Below, in pieces: positions 2,086-19,873 of a stretch of 36,093 nucleotides of DNA (the stretch's first letter is position 1; each line of letters opens with the position of its first letter). The DNA comes from Acidobacteriota bacterium (GTDB taxonomy: Bacteria; Acidobacteriota; Thermoanaerobaculia; Multivoradales; Multivoraceae): NCBI GenBank assembly GCA_026708285.1, contig JAPOVF010000022.1, positions 1 through 36,093 of the forward strand, read 5' to 3'. The notes under the pieces were generated by a model. It did not search any database. It saw only the letters and a program-made list of their open reading frames with translations, and was not told the DNA's origin. The position numbers were made by a program, and so were the translations under genes.

Positions 2086-2230
2086 TCGACTCAGCTACCC
2101 CCGCAAGTGGCAATTCTGCACTTCTACTGCACAATGTCCACCTTCTTCCCCCTCAATGCCGGTCGTGCGCGGAGGCGATCGCACCCCCGAACGCCTTGGC
2201 AGCGACTCCACCCGAATTCCCGGCAGGGCC

Positions 2231-5200
2231 TCAGCACCCTCCTCCTATCGTTGGATGCTGAAACCTGAAGCGGACCGAGCCCTGACCGATCTGCTTGAAA
2301 CGGTTGCGGGTCCCGTCGCCCATGGGATTGGGCAACTCCAGGACCATCCAGCGGTCCGGGCAGAAGACGAAAGGAACGTAGAGAATCCGGTACCGTCGAC
2401 GACCGCGCCGCGGCACTCTGGCTGCCACTCGCATCTCGTTCGGGGTCAACTCGAACTCGCCCGTGTTCTCCAGCGAGGACTTGACCTCGTACAGCCATTG
2501 TGCCTGCGGAGTGTTGACGCAGAAGTCGTACCCCGCAGCGTCGTCACCTTCGTCGCCACCGAAGAACCGTGTTCGATTGGTCGAGATCCAACACGTCTCG
2601 TCGACGGCCTCACCGTGATGCCGACGCAAGTAGCGGAACGCTAGCCACTCACTCGCGAGCCCCATCGCCCGCCGCAGGTCTTCGGGTGGGCGCTTCCTGC
2701 GTCCGGCTACGCGGCGGGTCCCATCGACGGGCGAGCGGCTGCCACCTGGAGGTGCGGCGAACTTCGCGAGTCTAGGCCGTCGGCTACGCTCAAACCACGC
2801 GTCGTTCCCGTCAATCCAGTCTTCCGCCAATCGTCCGAAGGCCTGAGCGAAAGAGGGATCGCCCGTGTCGAGGCTGTTTCCGGCGAAGTCGATACTCCGC
2901 TCCTCTACGATCCTGCCTTGCCGTTTCGTTTCGCGGCGCCGCTCCTCCTCTTCGACGGCGGTCTGGTCAAGCCCGAGTGTCGCGGGGTCCAGCGTCCGCG
3001 GCATCGCCTGCGGCCAACAGGCGGCACGGCGGCAGAAGCCTGGTAGTTGAGCGTCGTCAACAGGCTCAAAGTCGAGGAGCCCGGCGTTCTCAAGCTGCCG
3101 CACCACGGACTGCGGTTCTCCGCTCAACCAGGGTTCCTGGACGGGGACGCCGTTACGGCGACACCAAGCGAGGACGACAGCGCTTGCACGGGATGCGAAG
3201 CTACGCACTGACTTGCGATTCGTCTCCAGCAAGCCCCGCAACGACGGGAGATTGACATCGCGGTCCTCTCCCAGCACTTCGCCAAGCAGCCCCGTCACAT
3301 GGGTTTCGACGATTCGTTGATCCAGCGTTTCCTTCGTCCGGATCCACGCGGTATCGAAGGCTAGGAACGCCAGCGTCTTTCGTTCTACGTAGACACCGAG
3401 GTCCCGCTCTTCTCGGAAGTCGACCGCGTGGTGGCGCCGCAGGCGTTCCAGGATCCGCGGCGCCATCGGCCGGAGATAGGCCGCATACAGAGACCGGAGT
3501 TCGGCCTCGTTCGAAAGCGGCGGTTCGCCCAAGGCCAAGAGTGTACGGTTGAACCTCTCGTAGTCGAGATCCAGGCTCTTGCGCACCTCGGCACGATCCG
3601 AAGACCGCTCACAGGTGTCGAGCCAGTCTTCCACTGCGAGCTGGCCGGGGAACCGTGCGCGGACCCAGTTCCGGAGGTCCCAGCCTGGCCCCGCACCTTC
3701 CGCGCTGGCTTGGAGTTCTTCGGCAAACGCGACTTCTCCGAAGTAAGCGACAACCGGTGTCAGCAGATGCAGAACGCGACCGACATCGGTGCGCAACGCG
3801 TCCCGATGCTCCAGCAAGGTCTGAGCATCACATCGGAGAGCCTTCGCGAGCGCTTCGTCGGACGGTGCGTCGAGTACGCCGTTCCGCTGGCCTAGGGCGA
3901 GTTGCGGGAGGAGCGCCTCTAGGAACCGGAACCGCCTGTCAATCAGCCGTGAGACTGTCCGCGCGAGGTCTTTTCCCAGCGTCGTCCATGTCAATGGCAC
4001 ACGGTCCGACAGGATTAGCGTCGGAAGCGCCTCATCGTCGAAGCCATACCACTCCAAGCTGTCCCTCGGCGACGTGTCCTGCTCGTCAACGACCAGAGTG
4101 ATCGTCTGGCAGTGCCTGACTCTGATGGCCCGAACGCGCCGGTCGACGGTAGCGGGCTGGACGCCGCGTTCAAGCTGCTCGGCGAGCATCTCGTGGCCCA
4201 GGAGCACTATCTCTGGCAACCACCCCATGCCAAGAGAGGTCAGCAACGGATCGTTCATGGTTGGCACGAAGCGCTCGCCGTCGACCAAGAGCTGCACGTC
4301 GGTTCCGCCAAGCCGCCGGGGCGCGAACCCGCCCGTCGCCTCCAGTTGTTCGGCGACTTTCTCGGCCGGGGCGTCGCCGATGTCGAGCCAAGGGTACCCG
4401 GCGGAATCAAGGATTCTTGCCTCGGACCGCTGCGCGCTTTGGGCAAGAATCACCGTAACGGGCTTCGTCATATCTCCGTTCAGAATCTCAAGCCGGCCGT
4501 CCCGGCTCACGGCCAGTTCCAGGCCCGTGGGCAAGGCGGCACCCGCATCGGAAACCTCGAACCAAGCCCGCCGGTACTCCCTCCTGAAGACCAAGCGGTC
4601 GTGCGTGGCCAGCGCCGGAGTAACGGCCGCTAGCACCTGCAGACGCTCGGCTGCGGTTTCCGGGCTGTGCCAGTCCCGAAGCCCGAGGTCAGCACCGAAA
4701 ACCAAGTCCGCGAGCTCCTTGCTGTTCTCTACGAGACCCGCCACGGTGTCAGGCACACGATGCACGAATCGCGGAGGGCGCCGTTGCCTCGTTCTGGAAG
4801 CCCAACACTCGATCGGTCGACGGAACCCGGGTTCCTCATGAGTGCCCGCGGCAATCCAAGCTCTAGACCGGAGAAACGTCGCAAGCGGCGTTGGGAGCCG
4901 CCTCCGGTCCCAGTAGCGAGGCCGCTCGAATCGGCCGACCTCAAAGCTCAGGTACTTGGTGTTGTGCTGTTCCAGGTGCCTGAAAGCAAGTTCGTGAAAC
5001 GCTTCCTTCGCGCCTTCGGGAAACTCCTCGTACTCGACCTGCCCGGGCAGCCGCCACGCTTCGCCCCTTCTTCCATACATCGTGTAGGGATGTCCTAGCG
5101 GTGTACGCGACGCTTCTCGGCACCAGTCCGTATCCAGGGAGTTCTTAGCGTCACCCCTGCGCATCAACTGGTTCCAAGTCCTTCCCCCCGCACGCTTCGG

Positions 5201-7555
5201 CAGGTGGCCCGCAAGCGGCCTCAGACCATGGGAGACACCGAGTAGCATCAGGAAAGTGACCCACTGGCGCTTGCTGCCGCCGGGGACCGGCGGCCAGTCC
5301 GCGAAATCGACCAGGAGCCCGCTTCGGGCTCGCCGGCAATCTGCCGAGGCTTCGCTCGCTTCGACCAGGTAGTTTTCCACGGTCCGGCCGACCGGCGTCC
5401 ACGTCGATGAAAACGTCGCCTGCGTAGCTGGTTGCCAGCCGCTCAATGTCGGCACCCACAGGCCCGCGCCCAGTAGCACTTCCTGAAGGCCGTCGCCCGT
5501 GGCCCCATAGACTCCAAACGCCCATGTCAGAGCCTCCCGACGGCGATTGTCGTTGGCTCTGGCGCCCAAGGCAGACGCGAGGCCGGACAGGGCTTCTACC
5601 GGATCGTACTCGCGTGCGAGATGGGCCTCGAGGAAGGCGTTCAGCGTGTCCCGCCGGAATGGGATTCTCTCGTCGACGAAGCGGTAGCGCCGGGTGAGCG
5701 TCGCCGGTGGCAACGGGACGCCGTCCTTGGTGCGCTTGCGTCTGGTTGCTTCGGAGCGCACAAAGACGCCGCGTCCCGACGACGGTCCGGCCACTCCCGC
5801 CGCCCGAAGCTTCCTTGACCGATCCAGCATGATGGCCTTTCCAGCCAATGCGCCGAGATCTGCGCCGGCAGCACCGAACACGAGCTTGAGGTCATTGTAG
5901 AAGCGCGACCAGGTCCGCGGCTTGGCGTTCCTGTCTGCCAAGGATCGTGCGAAGAGCTCGGACCATTCGGCGAGGCGTCCGCTCGTCGGCTGCAGATTGC
6001 GGTCTATCCGGCGTGCCAAGGTTCCTAGACGCTCTCGTCGGTCATCGTCGAGTACCGGCGCCACGAGCTTCGCACCGGTTCGCTTGACGACCTCTGCCGC
6101 CTTCATTAAGGAGAAGCTCCCTGCGGGCCAGACGTTGACCCCCGCGAGACTGGCCCAGTGGTCACGCTCGACCGGTATCACCGGAACAACAGGCGCCTCC
6201 TTCAGCGAACTGCCCAAGCGGCCAAGGGCGGCATCGAGCTTTCCGGCGTGTGGACCGGTCCAGGCGACCAGATCGAAGACAGCGCGCTGGAGAACCGGCG
6301 TGTCCGCCCGTTCGGCGATGTGCAATGCCGCTTGGGCGCTCGCTTCCGCGGCTGCCTTCAGCAGCATCGCGTTCAGTGGCAGGTCGAAGTCCGCCCTGCG
6401 ACGGTCGATTCCCGCGAAGAATGGTGCGTCGAGATGGCCGAGAAGGGGCGCGGATGCAGCATCACCCATAGGCAGAAAGTTGTATAGGCGCCCCTCGGCC
6501 ACCGCACCCGGGGACATACCAACAGCAACTGAAACCGTCGGTTGGCCCTTCCAGTCGAGCCAGCGCTTGAGTTGCGGCGCTCCCGACACGCTTTGCTCGA
6601 CTGCTTCGAGTACGAGCGCCTTGTCCACTTCACGTTGAACAACGAGGAAGCGCCGATCCTGACCTACGCCGACCTCGTACATTCGGCAGTGTGGGGCGTC
6701 CCGCACGTCGCCCAATGGCCTCTGGCTGCGGCTCAATCGACGCCGATACGGCGAGCCGTCCGGTGTCTCCACGTCGATACGGAAGTCTCCGATGCGATCC
6801 AGGAACAGCAGAAGAGGCACTTCGAGGTCCGCAAGCGCCCGCGTTTGGCGCTCCGCCAGCACGATTGCTTCGGTCGTCGACAAGGGCACGACGATGACGG
6901 TCGCGTAGCCTCTCCGGGCATACGCGACGACCTCCTCAGGCTGTTCGAATAGCGGCTGAGGGACGAGGTAGCGCGGAATCGTGTGCGCAACTTCGCGGGC
7001 TCTAGTCGGACTGAGACCGTCCGCGAGAAGGAGGGTCTCGATCTCGCCCACGGCGGCGAACCGGAAGCAGTAGCCATCGAACTGTGCCGACTCACTGGCG
7101 CCGACACGCGAGAAAACGCGCACGTCGTCGGTCAGCGCCTCGACGCTCCTGAAACCGAGGCCCTTGTTGCCGATACCCTCGCCGATCTTCTTGGCGGTCG
7201 TCGCGAGGTTCTTTATGGCTTCGACGTCCTCCCTGCGGAAGCCGGTGCCTCCGTTGGCCACATACAGAGTCCCGTCGGTCCCGGAACGCACGACCAGCCT
7301 TACAGCAATCCGCCCTTGGTCTTGGCCCTGGTGCGCATCGTGCGCGTTCTGAATCAGCTCGTACAGAACCCGATCGCCATACTCCGCGCCAACGACTTCG
7401 TTCAGGTTCCGCAGACTCTCATAAACCTTGAGCCTCTTTTCATGCGCATCCACGGCGTGCCTCAACACATCCCGCACCTGCCTGTTCAGTTCCTCCGCCC
7501 GAACGGGGTGCGGCGTGTGGCCATCCCCTCGGGCCCTCTCAAACTCAAGGGCCAA
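2231..7555 (-). CDS. Giant sacsin-like GHKL ATPase with C-terminal DUF3883 nuclease-like domain
   Basis: This 1774-residue protein opens with a sacsin/Hsp90-type Bergerat-fold ATPase: N-box ELIQNAHDAH (residues 66-75, N70), second motif ANGGTGF (100-106) and lid glycine motif GNKGLGFRSV (129-138). A very long middle region (about 250-1600) has no family I recognise. The C-terminus (about 1631-1740) resembles DUF3883, with GYDF (D1677) followed by YEVKS (E1690, K1692), a D...ExK pattern of PD-(D/E)xK nuclease folds. The start is TTG at 7555, supported by CAGGAGC six bases upstream. A sigma-54-like promoter lies 98-112 bases upstream. It is the last gene of the defence block. Expected role: an ATP-gated effector acting on nucleic acid. 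The domain calls are fairly secure; the effector role is inference. Confidence 0.82.
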   Translation of the reverse strand: MALEFERARGDGHTPHPVRAEELNRQVRDVLRHAVDAHEKRLKVYESLRNLNEVVGAEYGDRVLYELIQNAHDAHQGQDQGRIAVRLVVRSGTDGTLYVANGGTGFRREDVEAIKNLATTAKKIGEGIGNKGLGFRSVEALTDDVRVFSRVGASESAQFDGYCFRFAAVGEIETLLLADGLSPTRAREVAHTIPRYLVPQPLFEQPEEVVAYARRGYATVIVVPLSTTEAIVLAERQTRALADLEVPLLLFLDRIGDFRIDVETPDGSPYRRRLSRSQRPLGDVRDAPHCRMYEVGVGQDRRFLVVQREVDKALVLEAVEQSVSGAPQLKRWLDWKGQPTVSVAVGMSPGAVAEGRLYNFLPMGDAASAPLLGHLDAPFFAGIDRRRADFDLPLNAMLLKAAAEASAQAALHIAERADTPVLQRAVFDLVAWTGPHAGKLDAALGRLGSSLKEAPVVPVIPVERDHWASLAGVNVWPAGSFSLMKAAEVVKRTGAKLVAPVLDDDRRERLGTLARRIDRNLQPTSGRLAEWSELFARSLADRNAKPRTWSRFYNDLKLVFGAAGADLGALAGKAIMLDRSRKLRAAGVAGPSSGRGVFVRSEATRRKRTKDGVPLPPATLTRRYRFVDERIPFRRDTLNAFLEAHLAREYDPVEALSGLASALGARANDNRRREALTWAFGVYGATGDGLQEVLLGAGLWVPTLSGWQPATQATFSSTWTPVGRTVENYLVEASEASADCRRARSGLLVDFADWPPVPGGSKRQWVTFLMLLGVSHGLRPLAGHLPKRAGGRTWNQLMRRGDAKNSLDTDWCREASRTPLGHPYTMYGRRGEAWRLPGQVEYEEFPEGAKEAFHELAFRHLEQHNTKYLSFEVGRFERPRYWDRRRLPTPLATFLRSRAWIAAGTHEEPGFRRPIECWASRTRQRRPPRFVHRVPDTVAGLVENSKELADLVFGADLGLRDWHSPETAAERLQVLAAVTPALATHDRLVFRREYRRAWFEVSDAGAALPTGLELAVSRDGRLEILNGDMTKPVTVILAQSAQRSEARILDSAGYPWLDIGDAPAEKVAEQLEATGGFAPRRLGGTDVQLLVDGERFVPTMNDPLLTSLGMGWLPEIVLLGHEMLAEQLERGVQPATVDRRVRAIRVRHCQTITLVVDEQDTSPRDSLEWYGFDDEALPTLILSDRVPLTWTTLGKDLARTVSRLIDRRFRFLEALLPQLALGQRNGVLDAPSDEALAKALRCDAQTLLEHRDALRTDVGRVLHLLTPVVAYFGEVAFAEELQASAEGAGPGWDLRNWVRARFPGQLAVEDWLDTCERSSDRAEVRKSLDLDYERFNRTLLALGEPPLSNEAELRSLYAAYLRPMAPRILERLRRHHAVDFREERDLGVYVERKTLAFLAFDTAWIRTKETLDQRIVETHVTGLLGEVLGEDRDVNLPSLRGLLETNRKSVRSFASRASAVVLAWCRRNGVPVQEPWLSGEPQSVVRQLENAGLLDFEPVDDAQLPGFCRRAACWPQAMPRTLDPATLGLDQTAVEEEERRRETKRQGRIVEERSIDFAGNSLDTGDPSFAQAFGRLAEDWIDGNDAWFERSRRPRLAKFAAPPGGSRSPVDGTRRVAGRRKRPPEDLRRAMGLASEWLAFRYLRRHHGEAVDETCWISTNRTRFFGGDEGDDAAGYDFCVNTPQAQWLYEVKSSLENTGEFELTPNEMRVAARVPRRGRRRYRILYVPFVFCPDRWMVLELPNPMGDGTRNRFKQIGQGSVRFRFQHPTIGGGC

Positions 7556-7652
7556 GGGGCGCTCCTGCTATCTGCCTGCGCATCTGGTCTTCACCGTTGT
7601 CGCCCGTGGCGCCCTGCATGAGGCCTTGTCAATCTTGGCCTGGGACGATCGG

Positions 7653-7667
7653 GCAACAACCGGGCCA
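7653..7667 (-). promoter_or_regulatory. Sigma-54 (-24/-12) promoter for the GHKL gene
   Basis: On the minus strand TGGCCCGGTTGTTGC matches the sigma-54 consensus TGGCACGNNNNTTGC except for A to C at one position, with correct spacing. The -12 GC is at 7654-7653, putting the transcript start near 7641 and giving an 86-base leader before the TTG start at 7555. The site lies 10 bases after the stop of the upstream NTPase gene. The same placement occurs at 18357-18373, and a sigma-54 activator is encoded in the same block, which makes chance less likely. Confidence 0.6.
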
Positions 7668-7676
7668 CGGCTCTGT

Positions 7677-9257
7677 TCACGAACGACTACGCTTGGACGC
7701 CGCAAGATCGCGTGCAAGGCTCTCGCAGAGGCCAATAGAAGACAGACAGAACGCCGTCGCCATGAAGATCGAGACCGTTGCTTCCTCTCTGTGTTGGCCG
7801 AAGTCACCGATAGACTGAAGGTGATCGACCAGCAAGCACGTTGGCTTCGTGACGAACATTGCGGCTGGGTCGTTGTGCTCCGTGCCCGTAATGCGCCGCA
7901 AGATCTGGCATTGCCGCCCGCGACTACGCGGAAGTCGGCCTCTGTCATCAAACTGGACACCGGCGAACTTCCAGTCATCCGGCATTGACCGATCGTTCGG
8001 GAGTTCAGCTTCCCAGATCAGATCTAGCGCACGGCCCGCGATACTGCGGGCCCAGACCACAGAGTTCACAGGTTCGGGCTGCAAGTCGCGGATTGCACGC
8101 TCAACGAAGTCGCGCAGCTCAGGGTCCGCCCCGTCGACCTGAGTTAGGCGGAGTTCGAGAAGGTTGCGGATGTTCCCCTCAAAGCGCTCTGGGGCACCGA
8201 ACATCCGTCGCAGGTTCGCGACGCCCTCAGCCCGCTGCAGGGCGTATTGAGCCATCAGGCGGCAAGATGGCCGGATCTTCTTCCCAATAGCGCGGGCGAA
8301 ACCGCGACGCTCGAGATCGCGTCGCCTCTCGTCGGCGATCTCGCGCAGTGGCAAACCACTAGCTGCTATTGCCGCCAAGTCTGACTGGAGTTCAATCGAG
8401 CAATCATCCCAAAGCGCAGCAAGGAGCTCTCGGCGCTCTTCTATCGTTGCCTCTGCAGTGGCATCCACATCCGGCTTTGAGAGGGTCTGGCCCTGGCTGG
8501 CGGCGGCCAGCAAGCGCTCGGCCATCGCGACGGCCAGAACGGGAACCCCACCACTCCAGTTGCTGAGCTCCTTCACGGCAGACTTGTCGAGGCTCACACC
8601 CGTCACCTTGAAAGGCCGTAGGAAGCTGTCCCAGTCGTCGTCCTCGAAACAGCCCACCTGGAGCGGCGTGTCGTAGAAGATCTCCCAGAAGTCGGATGTC
8701 CGCGATTCCTCGGTCTTACAAAGCTCCCGAAGTCTGCCCCGGCTCCCTGTCACAAGCCTCAGGCTGGACTTCTGAGCGAGCGTCCGCATCTCGTCCCAGA
8801 GGTTCCGCGTGATGCCACTCCCCGCTAGAACGTGGTCGAACCCGTCCAAAACAGCTAGCAGACGTAACCTCTTCTTGGCCAGCTCATCAAAGACGAGAAG
8901 AAGAAGGTCGTGCAGCCCTTCCCCCTCCAGTTCGAGGTACTCGGCGCACTCAGGACGCACGACCTGGAGGGAATCCTTGATGCCTTCCGCAAAGCGTAGT
9001 CGAAACTCATCGTCTGTTCCCGGGGTGGCGTGCCGGAGGTCCAGGTACAGGGACGTGACGTAGTGCTCGCCGGGTGTCTTGAACTGTAAGGCTAGGTGAT
9101 TCAACAGGACCGACTTGCCGAACTGCGGAGGGCCCACCACGCACACATGGTCAGGTGTCGCTTTGACCAAATGGCGACAGAGCCCGTCGAACAGGCGCTG
9201 CCGTCCCAGCATCTCTGGTGCTTCAACACCGCGGACCTTGTAAGGGTCCTCACTCAT
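7677..9257 (-). CDS. STAND/AAA-type NTPase (526 aa)
   Basis: The N-terminus carries a Walker A motif GPPQFGKS (residues 42-49) after a GRQ-type lead-in (LGRQRLFDGL), a Walker B strand LLAVLDGFDHV (133-143) in the STAND style (DGxD), and a sensor-like strand RLVTGSRGR. The middle is helical. The C-terminal 80 residues, with TKPTCLLVDHLQSIGDFGQH, form a helical segment that loosely recalls HEPN-like ends but lacks an arginine in the RN...H position, so I do not call it a ribonuclease. ATG at 9257 has GGAGG about 10 bases upstream. It lies 102 bases after the pseudo-methylase fusion, probably in the same transcript, and just before the second sigma-54 promoter. It is probably a signalling ATPase partner in the defence block; its function is otherwise unknown. 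Confidence 0.8.
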   Translation of the reverse strand: MSEDPYKVRGVEAPEMLGRQRLFDGLCRHLVKATPDHVCVVGPPQFGKSVLLNHLALQFKTPGEHYVTSLYLDLRHATPGTDDEFRLRFAEGIKDSLQVVRPECAEYLELEGEGLHDLLLLVFDELAKKRLRLLAVLDGFDHVLAGSGITRNLWDEMRTLAQKSSLRLVTGSRGRLRELCKTEESRTSDFWEIFYDTPLQVGCFEDDDWDSFLRPFKVTGVSLDKSAVKELSNWSGGVPVLAVAMAERLLAAASQGQTLSKPDVDATAEATIEERRELLAALWDDCSIELQSDLAAIAASGLPLREIADERRRDLERRGFARAIGKKIRPSCRLMAQYALQRAEGVANLRRMFGAPERFEGNIRNLLELRLTQVDGADPELRDFVERAIRDLQPEPVNSVVWARSIAGRALDLIWEAELPNDRSMPDDWKFAGVQFDDRGRLPRSRGRQCQILRRITGTEHNDPAAMFVTKPTCLLVDHLQSIGDFGQHREEATVSIFMATAFCLSSIGLCESLARDLAASKRSRS

Positions 9258-9303
9258 CTCTACTCATCCTCCATCGTCGCGGGTGGCCCTCCCATCCGCG
9301 CCA

Positions 9304-9317
9304 ATCGCGTTCGCGAT
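9304..9317 (-). repeat. Short inverted repeat between the fusion gene and the NTPase gene
   Basis: ATCGCG-TT-CGCGAT is a perfect 6-base inverted repeat in the 102-base gap between the fusion gene and the NTPase gene. In RNA it would fold as a 5-base-pair hairpin with a 4-base loop. No T-run follows on the minus strand, so it is not an intrinsic terminator. It could be an RNA-processing or stabilising element, or chance in GC-rich DNA. Confidence 0.3.
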
Positions 9318-9359
9318 CAGTTTCTGTCCCACGCCCGCAGGTACCGTCAAGTCCCATGA

Positions 9360-12300: not shown

Positions 12301-13295
12301 GCGATGACCGCGCGACCCCCTCGCCGAAGCGAGGCCATCACATGCTGGAGAAAGAGCGTCTCGACGTTCGTAGCTGGCACTGGGAACTGGGCCGCAACCT
12401 CAGGTTTTAGGCGCCCTCCCCAAGGGGGAACCGCGAGGATGCAGTCGAATCCTTCGACGGACGGATCCTTAGCCAAGGGACGTTCCAAGGCATCACCAAA
12501 CTCAAGTCCCGGATGCTCGATGCCCGCCAACACAACACGAGCTAAGCCAACGACATACGCGTCAGGGTTGATCTCCACCCCGAACACACTTCGTTGCTGG
12601 ACATCGGCCCAGACCTTGTGCGGCATCTGCAGCGCCTGCTCACAGAGACTGCCTGCTGCTCTTGCGAGCAATCCGCCACTGCCAAAGCACGGATCATAGA
12701 CCCGTTCCCCCGGATTCGGCTTCAGCAGCTCCACCATGAGTTCGACCACAGCCAGAGGGGTCTTGTGATCGCTGTACCCCACTCCACTCGCGTGCTCCAC
12801 TACGACCTCTAGATCCTCTCCAGCCGCCCTCCGACCCCTACTGGTCTCCAGCTCGTACTCACCGCTCCACCGAATGAGCGTCTCCATCTCCGTCGGCGAT
12901 CCGTGCGCCAGCGTCTCGACGACAGGAGCCAGCCGCCGCAAAGCCTGACCGGGTACCCCCGAAGGTGCGTTCTGAAGCCCGGGGAGGACTTCGCGTCGGA
13001 CGAACTCCACTAACCCTTCACCCCGAAGCTCGCTCCAACGCGTCCAGTGCCTATCTCGAGCCAGTGCACGCGTGTAGGCACGGCCCTCGAAACCGGCCAC
13101 AGCCTCTTGCTCCGCATCCATGTGCTCTGCCCAACGAAGAAGAAGCAACGCTGCCAGCGGAGCTACTACCGAGTCCAACGAACGAACGGCGGAGTGGTTG
13201 CGCAGCTCGTCGAGACGGGTCCACAGGTTAACGCCCCGAGCCGTGCGTTCCGTCGGCCTCGTGCGCCCCTCGTCTCCACCCTGGTGGTCATGCAT
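9360..13295 (-). CDS. Fusion: pseudo-HsdM methyltransferase, single HsdS-type TRD, beta domain, STAND NTPase
   Basis: The 1311-residue protein (start ATG 13295) begins with an HsdM-like helical N-terminus and N6-adenine methyltransferase core: motif I VYDPCFGSGG (residues 199-208), FGVEINPDAYVVGLAR, and motif IV region CILAVPPWGG. The catalytic N/D/S-PP-Y/F/W is VPPW (V289), so methyl transfer should fail. Residues about 470-640 form one HsdS-type target-recognition domain ending in VPIPVPALPLQER. A beta-rich Ig-like stretch follows (about 790-885). The C-terminus is an NTPase with Walker A GNRRTGKT (940-947), Walker B LLLMLDEFDK (1056-1065) and ITGSRRLK. The frame is open upstream to 13382, but ATG 13295 overlaps the hsdS stop (ATGCATGA) and follows a G-run ribosome-binding site. 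Likely a DNA-sensing regulator or effector of the block; the sensing role is inference. Confidence 0.88.
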   Translation of the reverse strand: MHDHQGGDEGRTRPTERTARGVNLWTRLDELRNHSAVRSLDSVVAPLAALLLLRWAEHMDAEQEAVAGFEGRAYTRALARDRHWTRWSELRGEGLVEFVRREVLPGLQNAPSGVPGQALRRLAPVVETLAHGSPTEMETLIRWSGEYELETSRGRRAAGEDLEVVVEHASGVGYSDHKTPLAVVELMVELLKPNPGERVYDPCFGSGGLLARAAGSLCEQALQMPHKVWADVQQRSVFGVEINPDAYVVGLARVVLAGIEHPGLEFGDALERPLAKDPSVEGFDCILAVPPWGGRLKPEVAAQFPVPATNVETLFLQHVMASLRRGGRAVIALPEAALFRIGADRMVRKALVSEYCVEGVVSLPAGAFRPYTGIKTSLVFFRRERAGEVVRFLQVDEWPTFGPDDARGRENALAVARSVAAKFKHGTSNGTLWETAVEHLATRDWELVAKRTGEEALGRSLAALAEVDAEIPVRPLGEVTEVFAGVSYRRAVTTADGDDPSVFSGLLRVGDVNEVGARRPSLFLTKEGATRVRATQRLRAGDVVLTTSGTIGKLGVVCESTGTVGAVPAKSLVVLRPTGHISPEFLKWILNSDTYQEWLHGHARGSVIQHLSVRALRHVPIPVPALPLQERVCRQVAGERDHSLAALLTVLTDTGEDPILAWLDESSEVQELRGSRQPADPVAVLERVAGSVGMLRNQMAHSESHSVADLAVWLMKFSEALGTLRDLGEVPPGPGRFAILDRARLRLEQLHSTCGESPLPALDSARDLTNRVTRLVRMELESLLGEVELQPGVEPNVVAVGMSSEVQVRLKNRSPLALRNVSVSTVPDIGSGSSAYVAEGQAVSFAGQIPAQSELGPCGLQLRWRADRLDGRRLHGDASLAVDVRSVVEAAPRADLGTSPYIVGAPIDRPEMFFGRRAIVGKIRGQLSTSHQANVILLEGNRRTGKTSILRHLQAPGVLPGWIVVNCSFQGGEGHENKPGLPTAGVFKLMARDIGWAVHDAGIEVWFPGVDSPDPDKPFKVAFLKGLSAAFSEDRPFEMFELYLQAVLEAARPRRLLLMLDEFDKLQEGIDSGVTSPQVPENIRYLLHTYTGLSAVITGSRRLKRLREEYWSALFGFGHRVPVGELPLEDARLLVTRPVEGRLAYVPEATDRVVQLCARQPFLIQSLSNRVFESAAVSNRRTVTVAAVDAAAKEMVVDNEHFRTLWDYAGTERRRFVMSLCQQLDVGPDPITLGLLETKLEEHGIVLPRSDRFGRDLEFLRELELLELRGTTRGSAYALAIPLMAWWIGRNVDSEDQRQKAVRESEDLEGR

Positions 13296-14484
13296 GGAGT
13301 CCCCCCCCAAGAACTCGTTCCAGGACTGACCCAGGAAGGCCCTTGATCGACTCCATGCTGAGGTCAGAGCGAATTCTGTCACTAGCTGTCTTCGCTTCCC
13401 GCAGTCGTTCGACGAGCGATTGCTGCTCGGCGACCGAAGGCAGTGGTAGCTCCATTCTCCGAATTTGTCTTGCGTTGACGTTCACCATCCCGATGGCTCT
13501 ACGGGCCGACCGGTGCACAAACCGTCGACCGATCCGGCTGTTGATGACGGCCGTCACATACTCCGGAAGCGCCCTGCTACGGTCCACTTCAAGTCGGATC
13601 AGGTACGACGCAAACACCCAATCGCCGCCGAGACCTGTAAAGGTCGCGGCCTTTCCTACCAACGCTAACGAGTTTGTGCGATTGAAGAGGATGTCTCCAT
13701 CGCTCAAGATGTACTTCTTGATCTCCCGCACGGGCAGCCGGATGTGCTTCAAATCGGCCAGGTCCAGGTGTCCGTCCCGGATGTTCCCCATACGCAGAAT
13801 CGGAACTCCCTCCCGACTTGTGTTGGCCCTGGACGACGTCCCGTATTGGGTGCGCAGAAGGATCCGCGCGAGAGGAACGACCGGAGTGTTCTTCGTCCGC
13901 CTCACATGACCGGAGACGAAGTCAGCGAAGACGGCTCCTTCCAATGAAGACGCCTGCCTCAGTGACTCGCTGCGCAGCTTCCGGATCTCTTCAACTCGCT
14001 CGAGGCACTCACCAATGACGTCGACGATCGTGCGCTGCACTGTCAGTGGAGGCACTGGAAGCCCAATGCGTTCTAGCTTCTTCTTCGTGATATGACGTAG
14101 TCCCACACCCCCATGAGAAAGTGAGATCATCTCGTCCAACCGGGAGTTCAGAGCGTGGGCAAAGAACTCCTTGAGCATTCTGTCCGTGTCGACCGTGACC
14201 CTGAAAATGTGCTGGTTAAGAACGGCTCGTCCCCTGCTCCAGACGAAGCACCCAAAGGAGGTGCCGGGAGTACCCGACCAAGAAAGAAGTACGTCCCCAC
14301 TATCGATGAGGTGTTTCTCGTCAACGTTTCCGTTAAAGAAGTTGAATGGCCTAGTTTCGTCGTTGAGGTTCTGGATACGAACGATTGGAAGGCCCTGCGA
14401 CGACCAATCGGACGGCCTGAAGGCCCGCCCGTTCACCAGCCGGCACAGCGATCCGACCCTCTCCACTTGCCAGCACGCTCTCAC
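13288..14484 (-). CDS. hsdS: Type I restriction-modification specificity subunit HsdS
   Basis: This 398-residue protein has two target-recognition domains, each followed by a helical conserved region. The first (about 1-150) ends in ERIGLPVPPLTVQRTIVDVI and the second (about 200-365) in RRMELPLPSVAEQQSLVERL, the usual HsdS half-site organisation for a bipartite DNA target. It directs the HsdM/HsdR complex to its sequence; the target itself cannot be predicted. Translation starts at GTG 14484, overlapping the hsdM stop (GTGA), so it is translationally coupled. Its own stop overlaps the ATG of the pseudo-methylase fusion. Base composition dips here (43% GC at 14281-14340). Confidence 0.93.
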   Translation of the reverse strand: MRACWQVERVGSLCRLVNGRAFRPSDWSSQGLPIVRIQNLNDETRPFNFFNGNVDEKHLIDSGDVLLSWSGTPGTSFGCFVWSRGRAVLNQHIFRVTVDTDRMLKEFFAHALNSRLDEMISLSHGGVGLRHITKKKLERIGLPVPPLTVQRTIVDVIGECLERVEEIRKLRSESLRQASSLEGAVFADFVSGHVRRTKNTPVVPLARILLRTQYGTSSRANTSREGVPILRMGNIRDGHLDLADLKHIRLPVREIKKYILSDGDILFNRTNSLALVGKAATFTGLGGDWVFASYLIRLEVDRSRALPEYVTAVINSRIGRRFVHRSARRAIGMVNVNARQIRRMELPLPSVAEQQSLVERLREAKTASDRIRSDLSMESIKGLPGSVLERVLGGGLHA

Positions 14485-16010
14485 CCGGACGGCTCCAAGA
14501 GATCTTCAAGCTCCTTGAGAAGCTCGAGCACCCTCTCCTCCTTGGCCTTCATCGACTGCACCAACTCCAGCGCGGGCATATGATCAATACCCACTTCCTC
14601 GCCGGGGTTCTTCGCGGAGAGATCCCAGTCCTGGTCAGCGATCTGGGTGATGGTAACCTCCCAAGAGTTCTCGCCGCCCGCCCGCGCCTTCCACTTGGTC
14701 AAGAAGTCAGGTATCTGGCTCCCCTCGATCGGTCGCCGTGTCGACTTCAGGTCAAAACCATCGTTGGTGAGCTCGTAGTACCAAACGCTCTCTGTTCCCC
14801 GTTCGTCTTCGTGCCGCTTGAGGAAGAGAACATTCGTCTTAACGCCCGTGTAAGGGAGGAAACAGCCGGACGGCAGAGAGAGGATTGTATGGACGTCGAA
14901 CTCTCGCAGAAGTCGCCTGCGGACCTTGGCATCGGGTCCCCCCCGGAACAGAACCCCTTCCGGGACGATCACAGCGGCGCGGCCCCCTTTCGCGAGGTTT
15001 GCCATGATGTGCTGGAGGAACAGGATCTCGGTCGATCCCGAGCGCACAGTGAAGTTCGACTGGAGTTCGCGGGCCATCTTCCCGCCGTAGGGAGGGTTGC
15101 AGAGAATCACGTCGTAGCGGTCCCTTTCGGTCACGTTGTTCGAGTGAAGCTCCAGCGTGTTGCCCAGCTCGAGACTCGCTCCCTCGATGCCGTGGAGAAG
15201 CATGTTCATTGTGCCGAGAAGGTAGGTCAACGCCTTGTTCTCGATCCCCCAAAAGGTCCTATGCTGAAGCCGGTCCAGGTCGCGACCGCTGAGCGTTCCC
15301 GCAGCGTTTCGGACGTGCTCTGCTGCCTCGGCCAGGAAGCCCGCTGTGCCGAAGCACGGATCGTAGACGCGCTCCCCGATCTTCGGCCGAACCACGTCGA
15401 CCATGCACCTAATGATGTGGCGTTGGGTGTAGAACTCCCCCGCGTAGCCAGCGGAGTCGGCAGCCACGTCCTTGAGTAGACCTTCGTAGATCTCAGAGAG
15501 AACTATGACGTCGGTGGCTTCGCCGAAGTGGAGCCGATTCACCTGTTGCACCACACGGGCAAAGCTCACGCCCCGACGGGAGTGGTTGCGGACCGTGGAG
15601 AAGATCCGGCGGAAGCGCTCGGCCACTGCCTCACTCGCGAACTGCTGCGTGTCTTCGGTCTGACCGAAGGCCCTGAGGTGAGGCCAGAGTCTGCCATCGA
15701 CGAACTCCAACATCTGGGCAGGCCGGTTCGCCATCGAAGACCAACTTGCCCACCGGTAGTCGCCGTCGAGCCGCCGCCGGTACGGCGTACCGTCAAATGA
15801 GGCCTCCTCCTCACGCCGGCTCTCCATCTCATCGAAAGCCTTGAGAAAAAAGAGCCACGCGAGTTGCTCTACATAGTCACGCGCGTCGACGCCGTCTGCG
15901 CGAAGCTGATCGCAAGCGCTGCTGACAGCCTGCTGCACATCCTGCCGCCGGTGGTCGTCGGCCGCGTTCAACACGCCGTCGCGCCCGCTCTTTGCCGTTG
16001 CTTGCGTCAT
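14481..16010 (-). CDS. hsdM: Type I restriction-modification methyltransferase subunit HsdM
   Basis: This 509-residue N6-adenine methyltransferase has the HsdM N-terminal helical domain (residues about 25-150), SAM-binding motif I VYDPCFGTAG (215-224) and catalytic motif IV NPPY (305-308), all intact. It methylates adenine in the sequence selected by HsdS, protecting host DNA, and forms the M2S core of the restriction complex. ATG at 16010 lies 10 bases after the hsdR stop, and its own stop overlaps the hsdS start. This intact motif contrasts with VPPW in the fusion protein two genes downstream. Confidence 0.95.
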   Translation of the reverse strand: MTQATAKSGRDGVLNAADDHRRQDVQQAVSSACDQLRADGVDARDYVEQLAWLFFLKAFDEMESRREEEASFDGTPYRRRLDGDYRWASWSSMANRPAQMLEFVDGRLWPHLRAFGQTEDTQQFASEAVAERFRRIFSTVRNHSRRGVSFARVVQQVNRLHFGEATDVIVLSEIYEGLLKDVAADSAGYAGEFYTQRHIIRCMVDVVRPKIGERVYDPCFGTAGFLAEAAEHVRNAAGTLSGRDLDRLQHRTFWGIENKALTYLLGTMNMLLHGIEGASLELGNTLELHSNNVTERDRYDVILCNPPYGGKMARELQSNFTVRSGSTEILFLQHIMANLAKGGRAAVIVPEGVLFRGGPDAKVRRRLLREFDVHTILSLPSGCFLPYTGVKTNVLFLKRHEDERGTESVWYYELTNDGFDLKSTRRPIEGSQIPDFLTKWKARAGGENSWEVTITQIADQDWDLSAKNPGEEVGIDHMPALELVQSMKAKEERVLELLKELEDLLEPSG

Positions 16011-16020
16011 CCCGGGTCGC

Positions 16021-18318
16021 CTAGGCCACCATCGGCACGTACAAATGGCGCTTTACAGAGCCCAAGTGCTCCCTGAGCACCTCGGCACCTCCGTATCGGC
16101 TCAGCAGGCGACTGAAGCTGCCGAACTGCTCCACGAACTGGGGAGCGCTGTACGTGCTGCCCTTCTCCAAGTCGTCAATTCCATACAGCGAGTAGTGGTC
16201 CAGTCCTGTCTCCCAGAACCGCGTCTTGAAGCGCTCGTGATCGTCCAAGCCGTGCTCGCCGACCTGCGAAAGCAACCAATCCCCGTCGTCGCCCCAGAAT
16301 CGCGCGACCCGGTCAGGACGTGACGGAATCCTCACCAACCTAAAGCCGACCTTGGCCAGGATGTCCACTTCGTCAGACGCCTCGAGCTCGAAGTAGTGCC
16401 TGAACGCAGCCACGTGGACATCGCAGTCCGTGAGCTCGGCGCGGAGATCACTTCGCGTTTTCTGGTCGATCCAGATGCTCAGCAATTCATCCATGCTGGC
16501 CGACGCGATACTCCGGATCACGTCACGAGACCGCTCTAGGTACTCATCGAACGGGATCTTCCGACCATCGGCAAGACAGACGTAGCGCTCTGCCGAGGAG
16601 ATGTAGACGGAGACTCCTTCTCCAACTGGCTTTTCTGCGGGGCTCGCCGCCGGCTTCGTACGCGACGCGCGTTTGCGGCCCTCTTGCAGGTTGGCAGGGT
16701 GCCCATCGAACTCCGCATCTTCGAGCAAGTTCGCCCCGGCGTAGTCGAAGATCGTGAAGTAGCGCTTGTTGATGTCTTCGCAAAGGCGCGTGCCACGGCC
16801 CTTCATCTGCTTGTAGAGGATGGCACTCTTCACTGGCCTCGCAAAGACGATGTTCTTCACATCGGGCGCGTCGAAGCCGGTCGTTAGAAGGTCTACTGTG
16901 GCCGCCACTCTAGGCTTCGCTCGGCCGACGTCCGCGAAAGTTCTTTCGAGCTGGTGAGAGTTACGCTCGGACCGTGTGATGCGGGCAGCGTAGTCCGGGT
17001 CTCCAGAGAGGCGCCGCAGCTCGGCAGCAACGAAGGCCGCATGCGTGTCGTCCACACAGAAGATGATCGACTTCTCATCTCGAAGACCGTACTTTCCTAG
17101 CGTGGACCAGAGGTCCTCCATAAGAGTGCGGGTGCGTTCGGGCAGGCGGATTTCACGTTCGAAGTTCTGCGTCGTGTAGTGCTTCCCGTCAGGGCCCGTG
17201 TAACCGCCCTCGTCCAGATTCGAGATGCGCTCTTCGAGAAGATACGGAACAAGGTAGCCATCTTCGATGGCCTGCTTGAGCGAGTAGACGTACCTCGGCT
17301 CTCCAAAGTACTCATATGTGTCACGTCTAAGTTCCTCAGACGTGAGCGGGCGCCCCGTGCGGTCAATCTCGCGAGGCGTAGCCGTGAGCCCGAGCTGATA
17401 GGCGGACCCGAAGTGCTCAAGAACGCCGAACCAGTCGCCGAAACCGGAACGGTGGCACTCGTCTACCACCACTACGTCGAAGAAGTCAGGATCGAAGTGC
17501 TGGTAGAGCTTCTTTCCGTCGAGCTCCTCATCGAGGTTCTGATAGTTGGCGAAGAAGATCCGCCCGACGAGGTGTTCTCCACGACCTACTCGGTGTTTGT
17601 CGATGACTACGCGCTCGTCAGCCGGGAACCCGGCAAAGGCACGGTAGGCCTGCTCTTTCAGACTGTTGCGATCTGTGAGAAAGAGAAGACGCTTGTTGGG
17701 CAGAACCTCCCCGCGCATGAGCTTCCAGGCAAGCTGAAAAACCGTGTAGGTCTTGCCTGTGCCCGTGGCCATGAGCAGGAGCACTCTCTTCTCGCCTTGA
17801 CAGAAGCGATAGAGGGTCTCGAAGATCGCCATTTCCTGGTAGGGGCGGACCTTCTTCCTTGTGATCTGGTCTTCGTGCCATGGCGCCTCGAACACCGGCC
17901 GCCAGTCTCTCCAGACGATGTTCCGCCCGAGGCGATGCAGAATGTCCCCCGGCGACGGAGGAGCGTCGAGCGTCTCGTGCTCCCCGGTCTCGTTGTCGGT
18001 GAGGATGTACTCCCGGCCATTTGAGGAGACGGAGTAGCGAAGCCCGAGACGCCCGGCATATCGGGACGCCTGCTGCATGCCATTCGCAGCGGGTACGCCC
18101 TCGGACTTGGCCTCCAGGACAGCGAGGGGCATCCGCCAAAGCCGCAGTACGTAGTCCGCGACGATGTGCTGAGACGAGTCGTACATCGAGTCGCCCGTGA
18201 TGTTGACGCGGCCGGGACCGATAACCACCTGCTGGTCCCATTCCCAGCCGGCGCTCTTCAGCGCCGGCTCAATCAGACCGCGGCAGGTCTCGTCTTCGTT
18301 TCGGCTCATCGCATCCAC
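16021..18318 (-). CDS. hsdR: Type I restriction endonuclease/translocase subunit HsdR
   Basis: The 765-residue protein carries an N-terminal PD-(D/E)xK nuclease (D55, E69-A-K71, with Q83 in a QASRYA motif), then an SF2 helicase motor: Walker A MATGTGKT (183-190), DECHR box, GLTATP and the late motif QMKGRGTRL, and an EcoEI-type C-terminal region. It translocates and cleaves DNA lacking HsdM methylation. It is shorter than the large EcoR124-like HsdR and fits the EcoEI-type group. The frame begins at GTG 18318; ATG 18309 is an alternative. It is the first gene behind the full-consensus sigma-54 promoter at 18357-18373, with a GC-rich hairpin in the leader. Placing the nuclease first in an inducible operon is unusual. 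Confidence 0.94.
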   Translation of the reverse strand: MDAMSRNEDETCRGLIEPALKSAGWEWDQQVVIGPGRVNITGDSMYDSSQHIVADYVLRLWRMPLAVLEAKSEGVPAANGMQQASRYAGRLGLRYSVSSNGREYILTDNETGEHETLDAPPSPGDILHRLGRNIVWRDWRPVFEAPWHEDQITRKKVRPYQEMAIFETLYRFCQGEKRVLLLMATGTGKTYTVFQLAWKLMRGEVLPNKRLLFLTDRNSLKEQAYRAFAGFPADERVVIDKHRVGRGEHLVGRIFFANYQNLDEELDGKKLYQHFDPDFFDVVVVDECHRSGFGDWFGVLEHFGSAYQLGLTATPREIDRTGRPLTSEELRRDTYEYFGEPRYVYSLKQAIEDGYLVPYLLEERISNLDEGGYTGPDGKHYTTQNFEREIRLPERTRTLMEDLWSTLGKYGLRDEKSIIFCVDDTHAAFVAAELRRLSGDPDYAARITRSERNSHQLERTFADVGRAKPRVAATVDLLTTGFDAPDVKNIVFARPVKSAILYKQMKGRGTRLCEDINKRYFTIFDYAGANLLEDAEFDGHPANLQEGRKRASRTKPAASPAEKPVGEGVSVYISSAERYVCLADGRKIPFDEYLERSRDVIRSIASASMDELLSIWIDQKTRSDLRAELTDCDVHVAAFRHYFELEASDEVDILAKVGFRLVRIPSRPDRVARFWGDDGDWLLSQVGEHGLDDHERFKTRFWETGLDHYSLYGIDDLEKGSTYSAPQFVEQFGSFSRLLSRYGGAEVLREHLGSVKRHLYVPMVA

Positions 18319-18326
18319 ACTTCACA

Positions 18327-18344
18327 GGCCGAGTCCTCTCGGCC
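18327..18344 (-). promoter_or_regulatory. GC-rich hairpin in the hsdR leader
   Basis: GGCCGAG-AGGA-CTCGGCC forms a perfect 7-base-pair stem with a 4-base loop. With a predicted transcript start near 18347 it would sit at the extreme 5' end of the message, and the loop holds an AGGA ribosome-binding-like sequence 9-15 bases before the GTG/ATG start region. It may stabilise the mRNA or restrict hsdR translation. No T-run follows, so it is not a standard terminator. Confidence 0.5.
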
Positions 18345-18356
18345 GAACGTACACAG

Positions 18357-18373
18357 CAGCAAGGCGCGTGCCA
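18357..18373 (-). promoter_or_regulatory. Full-consensus sigma-54 promoter for the hsd operon
   Basis: The minus strand reads TGGCACG-CGCC-TTGCT, matching the sigma-54 consensus TGGCACGNNNNTTGCW at every specified position. The -24 box is 18373-18367 and the -12 box 18362-18358, so transcription should start near 18347. It begins on the base directly after the TGA stop of the sigma-54 activator gene and reads into hsdR 29 bases downstream of the predicted start. Such promoters are silent without an ATP-hydrolysing activator, and one is encoded immediately upstream. Confidence 0.85.
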
Positions 18374-19873
18374 TCAACTCTTCATCCCAAGGACTTTGAT
18401 TCGGTAGCGGAGTGCCGAACCACTTTCTAGCCCAAGAACCGCCGCAGCCGCGTTCTGCGACGGTGTGGCCTCAAGTGCTCTCCGGATGTACCGTCGCTCG
18501 ATGTCGTGAAGGGTCGTCTTCAGTTGGAAGTCGGGACCTAGCGGCCTGTTGGAGAGGTCCTTCGAAGGCCCGGCAAACTGGTGCAGAGCACGATGCACGT
18601 CTTGCGCCGCGATCTCCTCACCCGAGGAGAAGAGACCGGCGCGCACCAGTGTGTTCTGCAGCTCCCGTGCGTTCCCGGGCCACGTGTGCGACCGAAGAAG
18701 ACTTCTTGCTTGTGGAGAAAGAACCTTCTCGGTTGCTCCGGGTTCGCTTCCGCGACGAAACTCGCGATTCAGTTGGCCGAGGAAATGGTCGATGAGAAGG
18801 TCGACATCTTCCACCCCCCGTTCCCGCAGCGGCGGAAGTTGAATGAAGAAGGAGAAGCGGAAGAAGAGGTCCTCCCGAAAGGTCCCCCGCTCAACCTCGC
18901 GGCGGAGGTCGCGATTCGTGGCGGCGATGACGCGAGCGCTAGTCTCTTCTGGCGTTGCACTGCCCACCCGGTAGAACTCCCGATCCTGGAGAACCCGGAG
19001 GAGGCGAACCTGTGCGTCGCCGGAGAGTTCGCCTATCTCGTCCAAGAAGATGCTGCTATCGCGCGCAGCGTGGAAGAAACCAAGCGTGTCCCTGTCGGCT
19101 CCAGTGAAGGCGCCTCGCTTGTAGCCGAAGAGTTGGCTCTCCAAGAGGCTCTCGGGGATTCCACCAGCGTTTACCCGGACCATCTCCCGGCTACTGCCGC
19201 TAAGGGAGTGGATGAGTGAGGCGAAGAGTTCCTTGCCGGTCCCACTCTCACCCACGATCAAGACTGAGTAACGCCTGGGCGCGACTCGTGCCGCAAGTGC
19301 CTTAGCTTCGTTGATTCCGTCGCATTCACCGATGATCCTCCGAGCCTCGGGTGTCTGCGGCACTGCTCCAGAAAGTAGGTCCGCCAGACAGTCGTCCCTG
19401 AGGACCGACCTGAAGTCGGCCGATACGGAGAACGGGATGCTAGCGACTTGGAACCCAGCTTTCCGGGGCGAAGTCTGGATGAGGTCGGCTGGATGCGTCG
19501 ACTTGCCCAGAAGAACCCACACTGCCGCCATGGCGGGCGTACCCGGGCTCAAGTGATACACGAGCGACGCTTCGCGGCCATGTCGGTCATACACCGCGTC
19601 GATCACGGGACGCGTCGCTTCGTAGATGGCTCCATGGTCGATGACCTGGTCGTTCTTCAAGTCTCGACGTTCGACACGGACCGGTACCTGTGTGTACTCA
19701 CCTAGGAACGCGACGTAGCTGGAGTTCTCCCGAGCCGTGTAGTTAGAGAGGAGAACTATCTCGCGGAACTGTTCTGCCGACGCCGCCGACGCGATGGGGC
19801 CGAGTTCGTCCCGTTCGCCGGATGCAGCTGCCAGATCGGCCATGCCCAACCAAGCCAGGAGTATCCTCCTCAT
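18374..19873 (-). CDS. Sigma-54 activator with RtcR/CARF-like N-terminal sensor domain
   Basis: The 499-residue protein has three parts. Residues 1-160 resemble the CARF-like sensor of RtcR, with VYHLSPGTPAMAAVW (105-119) and LIQTSP (131-136). Residues about 178-410 are an AAA+ domain with Walker A GESGTGKE (208-215), the sigma-54-contacting GAFTGA loop (254-259) and Walker B SIFLDEIGEL (274-283). The last 45 residues are a Fis-type helix-turn-helix. It should remodel sigma-54 RNA polymerase when a ligand relieves the N-terminal domain. RtcR in E. coli controls the RNA repair operon rtcBA. Here the adjacent target is a restriction operon and no rtcA or rtcB is in view. ATG 19873 has GGAGG 5 bases upstream. 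A 10-base palindrome (TCTTGCAAGA, 19896-19905) in its leader may be a binding site. Confidence 0.9.
   Translation of the reverse strand: MRRILLAWLGMADLAAASGERDELGPIASAASAEQFREIVLLSNYTARENSSYVAFLGEYTQVPVRVERRDLKNDQVIDHGAIYEATRPVIDAVYDRHGREASLVYHLSPGTPAMAAVWVLLGKSTHPADLIQTSPRKAGFQVASIPFSVSADFRSVLRDDCLADLLSGAVPQTPEARRIIGECDGINEAKALAARVAPRRYSVLIVGESGTGKELFASLIHSLSGSSREMVRVNAGGIPESLLESQLFGYKRGAFTGADRDTLGFFHAARDSSIFLDEIGELSGDAQVRLLRVLQDREFYRVGSATPEETSARVIAATNRDLRREVERGTFREDLFFRFSFFIQLPPLRERGVEDVDLLIDHFLGQLNREFRRGSEPGATEKVLSPQARSLLRSHTWPGNARELQNTLVRAGLFSSGEEIAAQDVHRALHQFAGPSKDLSNRPLGPDFQLKTTLHDIERRYIRRALEATPSQNAAAAVLGLESGSALRYRIKVLGMKS

Follow-up and report, generated by a model that had tools for sequence, protein, structure and literature searches.

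The window analysed here, 36,093 nucleotides of contig JAPOVF010000022.1 from an Acidobacteriota bacterium (assembly GCA_026708285.1), carries seven open reading frames (ORFs) at 2231-19873, all on the minus strand, as are the features located within them below. This block is two things: a conserved system composed of an RtcR/PspF2-type activator (ACT), the type I restriction-modification (R-M) proteins HsdR, HsdM and HsdS, a methylase-STAND fusion protein (FUS) and a second STAND NTPase (NTP), and a separate, known defence gene encoding TmtA of Tiamat. On balance, we favour the reading that the six genes at 7677-19873 form one inducible defence unit of an undescribed type, that TmtA is independent of it, and that the unit works as proposed in the Discussion. 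At the level of sequence, such a unit is indicated by its composition and recurrent gene order, the co-divergence of HsdR and HsdM with FUS and NTP, its promoter, STAND motifs that are intact and a methylase motif that is eroded.

Proteins of the six-gene block

A preliminary description of this DNA had listed seven reading frames with domain calls, in a block headed by its own sigma-54 activator. All seven frames are present on the minus strand at the positions proposed, the domain calls agree with profile scans of the seven window proteins (Pfam, PADLOC 2.0.0 and NCBIfam), and the profile matches bear out an activator-headed block with HsdRMS, a fusion protein and an NTPase. ACT (499 aa, 18374..19873) has the order CARF, AAA+ and Fis-type HTH. 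It matches the PADLOC family RtcR_PspF2--CARF_AAA_HTH (PDLC01995) with 483 bits over residues 3-497, which is the full-length architecture, and Pfam Sigma54_activat, AAA_lid_14 and, weakly, HTH_8; GAFTGA is present in the translation of its AAA+ domain. Against the NCBIfam equivalog RNA_repair_RtcR it scores 276 bits, under the cut-off of 650, and is thus not RtcR proper.

HsdR (765 aa, 16021..18318) is EcoAI/FtnUII-like. HSDR_N and ResIII score above their cut-offs, EcoEI_R_C reaches 23.2 bits against a cut-off of 24, and NCBIfam restrict_EcoAI gives 486 bits over residues 7-760, under its cut-off of 550. HsdM (509 aa, 14481..16010) matches Pfam N6_Mtase and HsdM_N and has an intact motif IV, NPPY, while HsdS (398 aa, 13288..14484) has two target recognition domains (TRDs), with Pfam Methylase_S matching in two stretches and PADLOC Specificity_I. 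For both HsdM and HsdS the best PADLOC families are of Type I, and mad2 and mad5 rank lower. With a nuclease N-domain and a superfamily 2 motor in HsdR, NPPY in HsdM and two TRDs in HsdS, the three proteins have the features by which type I R-M is recognised, and they constitute an EcoAI-like type I R-M system of predicted activity.

FUS (9360..13382) is annotated from a GTG as a protein of 1340 aa; because the gene so annotated overlaps hsdS widely, its start is more probably the ATG at residue 30. An HsdM-like methylase domain is followed by a single TRD (residues 502-660, 11403..11879), a helical domain, a beta sandwich and a STAND/ORC-type ATPase with a winged helix. Its profile matches are to solved type I M and S subunits; the TRD scores 18.3 bits against Methylase_S (cut-off 22) and matches solved S subunits. 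As earlier noted, motif IV of the methylase domain reads VPPW, a degenerate form, at residues 318-321 (12420..12431). The motif RNQMAH (residues 725-730, 11193..11210) is of the HEPN-like RNxxxH form, the HEPN assignment coming from the motif alone. The STAND part (residues 925-1340, 9360..10610) contains GNRRTGKT, LMLDEFDK and the winged helix. NTP (526 aa, 7677..9257) is a second STAND NTPase with an all-helical C-terminal domain. No dedicated FUS or NTP model stood among the PADLOC 2.0.0, Pfam and NCBIfam matches listed, the PADLOC families being the best 25 of 103 for FUS, of 112 for HsdS and of 44 for HsdM.

Recurrence and co-divergence of the block

An alignment scan of GTDB contigs with two short patterns gave 45 FUS loci, to which the L numbers below refer; a single-protein scan of genome contigs for FUS gave no match. 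The loci belong to Acidobacteriota, Planctomycetota, Latescibacteria, Gemmatimonadetes, Cyanobacteria (Nostoc) and Chloroflexota, and further to Gammaproteobacteria, several deltaproteobacterial groups, Spirochaetaceae, Fimbriimonadaceae, Verrucomicrobia and others. NTP adjoins FUS in 44 of the 45, the exception (L030) being a contig that ends inside FUS. Composition was counted in the 40 loci with a FUS of at least 1200 aa, window and L061 included, leaving out neighbours under 71 bits (an HsdS piece in L010 and an activator piece in L045). The complete order ACT-HsdR-HsdM-HsdS-FUS-NTP is found in 17 of the 40. Seven more have HsdR-HsdM-FUS-NTP, with HsdS labelled in five and no full activator labelled, L045 with its activator piece among them; two (L009, L011) are on contigs that start within the Hsd genes; and five have ACT-FUS-NTP only. 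The last nine have neither ACT nor this R-M system; two of these contain a distant or partial HsdR, and the contig of a third (L015) is too short to tell. The co-occurrence that had been predicted therefore stands, in 17 of 40 loci, for activator, R-M, fusion and NTPase, and falls for the GHKL gene (the gene for TmtA), since a TmtA-like ORF is found in 1 of the 45 loci.

HsdR, HsdM, FUS and NTP diverge in step. Rank Mantel correlations on pairwise distances (n 21-39) were 0.85 for HsdM-FUS, 0.83 for HsdR-HsdM, 0.80 for HsdR-FUS, 0.77 for FUS-NTP, 0.72 for HsdM-NTP and 0.69 for HsdR-NTP, each with p 0.0005. The HsdR of L034 and the HsdM of L032 and L034 (below 400 bits, from other R-M systems) were left out, as were Hsd proteins with less than 25% identity to those of the window, minus-strand ORFs and proteins under the length limits. 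HsdS does not follow FUS (r 0.06), as is expected because its TRDs get swapped; HsdS TRDs have a median identity of 0.23-0.28 in comparisons of loci at which HsdM reaches 0.70.

The TRD of FUS behaves differently from those of HsdS: its identity between loci is 0.38, near the 0.37 of the FUS methylase part, and it ranks the HsdS of its own locus at a mean of 9.7 of 19, where 10 is expected by chance. Sharing of specificity between FUS and the local HsdS was rejected on this ranking. The earlier proposal that the fusion reads unmethylated targets of the R-M system lacks support, as its own HsdS is not favoured and FUS also occurs without these R-M genes. The TRD ranks and the co-divergence together indicate that FUS does not follow the R-M target and keeps pace with HsdR and HsdM, and this pace suggests that FUS contacts the Hsd complex.

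A survey of 396 genomes of the window's phylum found four copies of FUS and four of full-length NTP, in the same three genomes; L002 and L007 both lie in one genome of this phylum (G322). No FUS was found in the 14 same-genus genomes of that set, and the block has therefore probably been acquired by the window's lineage. Of the weaker matches in ten genomes of the phylum (E 1e-43 to 1e-50), the six examined (L062-L067) were rejected as FUS, being STAND domains on proteins with N-terminal halves that are propeller-like and membrane-anchored by eye; the remaining four are known as short loci only. Scans for FUS found none in viral contigs, six matches in phage records, all to the methylase part only, and three plasmid records, all of Acinetobacter ursingii, none covering 80% of FUS. 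HsdR-FUS-NTP occurs without HsdM and HsdS on one A. ursingii plasmid (L084, NZ_MH220285.1; gene content from PLSDB's table, which is incomplete) and in a genome of Citrobacter (L027), and motif IV is degenerate in both (HPPV and TPVT).

A sigma-54 promoter at the activator stop codon

The sigma-54 -24/-12 element TGGCACGCGCCTTGCT (18358..18373, minus strand) begins directly 3' of the ACT stop codon and is near-consensus (TGGCAC-N5-TTGCT, 18373-18358). In the window alone, the full site pattern with up to two mismatches has 2 matches against 2.9 expected; what lifts the first site above chance is its recurrence at this position in relatives. Of 24 activator 3' ends tested, 20 have a like site, the window's among them (p<0.05 against local shuffles), and 17 of these 20 sites lie at +1 to +6 from the activator stop. 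The tests covered 22 loci in which an activator ORF lies on the coding strand, and two of these loci have a pair of such ORFs; the four 3' ends that failed are those of both activators of L035, of L044 and of the first part of an activator that is split in L019. Over 900,907 bases of loci, 33 sites scoring at least 14.5 lie on the FUS-coding strand, some of them away from the activator, and 7 on the opposite strand; rpoN is present in the host genome. These results uphold the earlier claim of a sigma-54 promoter immediately after this stop codon.

The second promoter that had been proposed, for a separate GHKL unit, fared less well. This sigma-54-like site, TGGCCCGGTTGTTGCC (7652..7667, minus strand), is at +10 from the NTP stop and is weak, scoring 13.5 of 15.5 (p about 0.01-0.02). 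None of 100 shuffles reaches the window's 5 copies of the core TGGC-N7-TTGC (1.0 expected), and both proposed sites are among the five. Equivalents of the second site reach p<=0.025 at 4 of 41 NTP 3' ends, window included, which rules out a sigma-54 site as a regular feature before the gene after NTP; upstream of TmtA in the sister genome the best sigma-54 score is 11 of 15.5, none being equal to the second site of the window. The second site is thus not conserved in relatives.

Activators of the same family also head other cassettes in the phylum (L074-L083), with different type I R-M genes in L077 and L078 and very large proteins in L074 and L079. An ORF of 614 aa between activator and hsdR is common to two Planctomycetota loci, L020 and L040.

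A degenerate methylase joined to a STAND ATPase

Motif IV of the FUS methylase domain is degenerate in 26 of the 40 loci, and the changes differ (VPPW, APPW and HPPW; NPPI, NPPV and QPPV). Motif I, DPCFG, is kept in most, and Walker A and B are kept in 39 of 39. Degeneracy goes with the absence of the modification genes: all 13 loci lacking this HsdM/HsdS have it, compared with 12 of the 26 that possess them (Fisher p 0.0009, or 0.002 minus two loci with an HsdR piece), L015 being left out since its contig starts just before FUS, and these p values are too small because the loci are related. The ATPase half has a STAND/ORC fold with a winged helix by fold search and Walker motifs. NTP likewise has a STAND fold and Walker motifs, with Avs3 among the best Foldseek rows in a search of residues 1-354 only. 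FUS looks, from these motifs, like a methylase that lost catalysis and was yet kept within a STAND immune-type protein.

One variant FUS, at L026:10471-15975, has 1834 aa and a second P-loop motif, GPRRIGKT. A second STAND pair was also seen in the phylum. One member (L062, L063, L064, L067) has about 1300-1400 aa, shows by eye propeller-like repeats and what looks like a membrane segment, and ends in a FUS-like STAND domain, and an NTP-like STAND protein is near it in 4 of 6 loci examined; in these proteins the sensor half seems to have been swapped and the STAND pair kept.

TmtA and the surroundings of the block

The seventh ORF (2231..7555, 1774 aa from a TTG) is a neighbour outside the core and encodes a GHKL/sacsin-type ATPase with DUF3883/NOV_C. 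PADLOC TmtA matches it with 1655 bits over residues 20-1766 and NCBIfam P_loop_sacsin with 68.6, above the cut-off of 50, and the gene product is the known Tiamat protein TmtA. The one TmtA-like ORF among the 45 FUS loci, 30 of which have at least 6 kb beyond NTP, is that of L007 (29% identity, 60 bits; PADLOC TmtA 204 bits), although not every gene was PADLOC-scanned and a very distant copy could escape. At E 1e-30, TmtA is found in none of the 395 other genomes of the phylum.

In the window, the seven genes lie between an SDR gene (714-1550) and a peroxidase gene (19987-22194). The gap between these two is 5 to 114 bases in the same-genus genomes G135, G310, G397 and G270, about 0.8 kb in G168 and G222, 1.4-1.7 kb in G089, G160, G126 and G117, and 6.5 kb in G398, and the two genes are far apart in G214. 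This junction (window 1550-19987; L099-L107) is an integration hotspot in the genus. G398, which is outside the phylum survey set, has TmtA at the same site, with 77% DNA identity to window 2256-7494, and none of the block; TmtA without the block is also found on Roseovarius and Sphingobium plasmids (PLSDB's gene table). TmtA is hence best read as an independent Tiamat gene in the same hotspot as the block, and the earlier view of the GHKL gene as the effector of the unit fails on its rarity at FUS loci and its occurrence alone. A 418-aa ATPase-like ORF fills the gap in L101 and L104, the two 1.4-1.7 kb fillers examined, and in G398 two small ORFs, one HEPN-like by eye, precede TmtA (L106, G398:C11:159300-169500).

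Downstream of NTP, the first gene of at least 150 aa runs in the same direction in 26 loci and in the opposite direction in 12; in 6 it falls outside the sequence covered. Tail genes were scanned as 20 proteins from 18 of the 45 loci, chosen and not random, and nine of the 18 tails contain a known defence family: Hhe (L017), DruH3-DruE3 of Druantia III (L018), a DrmD-like helicase (L033), PDC-S02 (L043), SIR2-Argonaute three bases 3' of NTP (L020), a CBASS effector with its cyclase, also three bases 3' (L029), GmrSD overlapping NTP by one base (L040), PDC-M16B 629 bases away (L042) and, beyond two ORFs, the TmtA-like gene of L007. A generic OLD/AAA ATPase was found in L025 and a WYL protein in L008, and the other seven tails gave nothing or a weak match only. 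Coupling of the tails to the unit is unproven, because defence islands cluster anyway.

Discussion

We infer the ligand, the sensing, the oligomerisation, the output and phage defence itself, and propose the following mechanism. The CARF-AAA-HTH activator would sense a ligand linked to infection, which by analogy with RtcR could be damaged RNA with cyclic phosphate ends. It would then open the sigma-54 promoter at its own stop codon and turn on hsdR-hsdM-hsdS-FUS-NTP. HsdRMS would restrict DNA as an EcoAI-like type I enzyme, and FUS and NTP would act as a second layer, in which the methylase/TRD half of FUS, whose catalytic motif is unusable in the window protein, may serve as a sensor by docking on DNA or the Hsd complex. 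On recognition, the STAND ATPases of FUS and NTP would switch and oligomerise together, unleashing an activity that is toxic or blocking; the helical FUS domain, with the HEPN-like RNxxxH motif, and the C-terminal helical domain of NTP are the candidates for this output. A bolder formulation, which we put forward only tentatively, is a new kind of immune system, an inducible type I R-M system combined with a two-component bacterial resistosome in which a STAND ATPase with a dead methylase-specificity module for a sensor acts together with a second, dedicated STAND ATPase, the whole heading a sigma-54 superoperon with plugged-in defence modules in its tail.

Several observations weigh against an inducible unit of this kind. 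A full activator is unlabelled in 18 of the 40 loci, some cut by contig ends. ACT (median identity 0.54 between loci), which is a better internal control than HsdS against shared species history, does not co-diverge with FUS (r 0.09, p 0.17) or HsdR (r -0.06) and does so weakly with NTP (r 0.20, p 0.017), so that one regulator may be exchanged for another. Self-damage is a further problem for an inducible type I R-M system: the genome must be methylated before HsdR appears, and basal expression or delayed restriction is therefore needed. As to FUS, a canonical motif IV ([NDS]PP[FWY]) is present in 14 of 40, all adjoining Hsd genes, and those FUS might methylate; the RNxxxH motif is present in 13 of 40 loci, window included; and the fold search with residues 655-1340 covered mainly the ATPase and barely the beta sandwich and helical domains. 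In NTP, H489 is invariant and R484 is found in 10 of 40 and absent from the window protein, and a Pfam scan of ten NTP C-termini for HEPN returned only HEPN_Swt1, at E 0.11, in one.

Other readings have to be weighed against an inducible defence unit. FUS and NTP could be a safety device for restriction alleviation, an AAA+ machine that docks on HsdR/HsdM and restrains or recycles the complex during methylation of the host. The lockstep of FUS with HsdR and HsdM and not with HsdS, the control that a sigma-54-inducible R-M system would need, and the HsdR-FUS-NTP form without M and S on the Acinetobacter plasmid and in Citrobacter would all suit such a device; we nevertheless think it unlikely, since 11 of the 40 FUS-NTP loci have none of these Hsd genes and two more have only an HsdR piece or a distant HsdR (L015 cannot be judged), and since STAND with a winged helix suits immune switches better than unfoldases. 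It is quite unlikely, in our view, that FUS serves as an additional modification unit, an M-S fusion marking host DNA with a specificity of its own under ATPase-dependent control. The 14 canonical motifs beside Hsd genes, the mostly kept DPCFG and the matches to M and S subunits would fit this, but the window has VPPW, degeneracy has come about by different changes in 26 of 40 loci and in all 13 judged without HsdM/HsdS, and the STAND motifs are kept throughout.

The model of the preliminary description, a seven-gene unit in which FUS recognises the unmethylated HsdRMS target and a GHKL effector stands under a second sigma-54 promoter, draws on the common strand, the short gaps and the weak site after NTP. 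We regard it as highly improbable, given the single TmtA-like ORF at 45 loci, TmtA without the block in G398 and on two plasmids, a FUS TRD unrelated to its own HsdS and a second site that is not conserved; for the GHKL gene it is largely refuted. Improbable, too, is an island in which activator, R-M, FUS-NTP and TmtA are unrelated modules accreted by chance at a hotspot. The contents of the site do vary among same-genus genomes, TmtA looks accreted, and the activator family heads other cassettes and shows no co-divergence with HsdR or FUS, whereas the same six-gene set recurs in 17 of 40 loci across many phyla and HsdR, HsdM, FUS and NTP strongly co-diverge, a pattern that repeated accidents would not produce. 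Chance accretion holds for TmtA and may hold partly for the activator.

Taken as an inducible defence unit, the block can be compared with systems already described. Type I R-M of the EcoAI/FtnUII-like kind has the same HsdR, HsdM and HsdS with their motifs; here FUS and NTP are added, diverging in step with HsdR and HsdM, and a sigma-54 site stands in front. STAND and NLR-like NTPases (Avs, NLR, CED-4, archaeal 2qen and 2fna) share fold and Walker motifs with NTP and the ATPase half of FUS, but the sensor half of FUS is a type I methylase-TRD module and two STAND proteins occur in tandem. In MADS (MAD1-8), a type I-like methylase and an S subunit likewise occur with ATPases. FUS falls far short of the NCBIfam cut-offs, with 61 of 720 bits for MAD2 and 26 of 400 for MAD5. 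Only Tiamat shows no difference, as the GHKL-DUF3883 gene of the window matches TmtA over nearly its full length. BREX and related systems, in the available text of PMC12839542, resemble the block in theme, an adenine methylase being combined with ORC/Cdc6-like and STAND ATPases; the listed PADLOC matches include neither PglZ nor a BrxC-type protein, and the word RtcR is absent from the main text of that paper. DrmABC of DISARM and DruE/DruH of Druantia are likewise not among the listed PADLOC matches of the window proteins, and the statement that the block is not BREX, DISARM, Druantia, Dnd or Ssp holds among the PADLOC, Pfam and NCBIfam matches listed.

The link between RtcR and R-M is already known, as Makarova et al. 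2014 (PMC4012209), in its available text, states that RtcR-like proteins unlinked to Rtc are often associated with R-M systems. In that account and in PMC11090510, as far as their available parts go, RtcR-like regulators near R-M genes or CoCoNuT superoperons are of the same regulator family and head a codirectional run of defence genes in which HsdR, HsdM and HsdS are possible, and the RtcR-headed superoperons with CoCoNuTs (PMC11090510) are alike in having defence genes trailing the unit. The same parts describe no methylase-TRD-STAND fusion, STAND partner or promoter at the activator stop, and the seven window proteins have no Pfam match to the McrB-type GTPase or McrC of CoCoNuTs. A literature search, thin on subscription papers, found no description of FUS, NTP or the six-gene unit. 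As far as this search reaches, FUS, NTP and the six-gene unit are undescribed; the RtcR-like regulator beside R-M, and TmtA, are known.

Type I R-M is usually taken as complete with three subunits and as always on. Here, behind a regulator related to the RNA-damage sensor RtcR, two further proteins have diverged in step with HsdR and HsdM in many phyla. This makes testable the idea of restriction as an induced response, and the question of how a cell with such a system spares its own unmethylated DNA. FUS, NTP and the promoter at the activator stop are markers by which the system can be found in genomes, and FUS may offer a case of a methylase that loses catalysis and is retained in a STAND immune-type protein.

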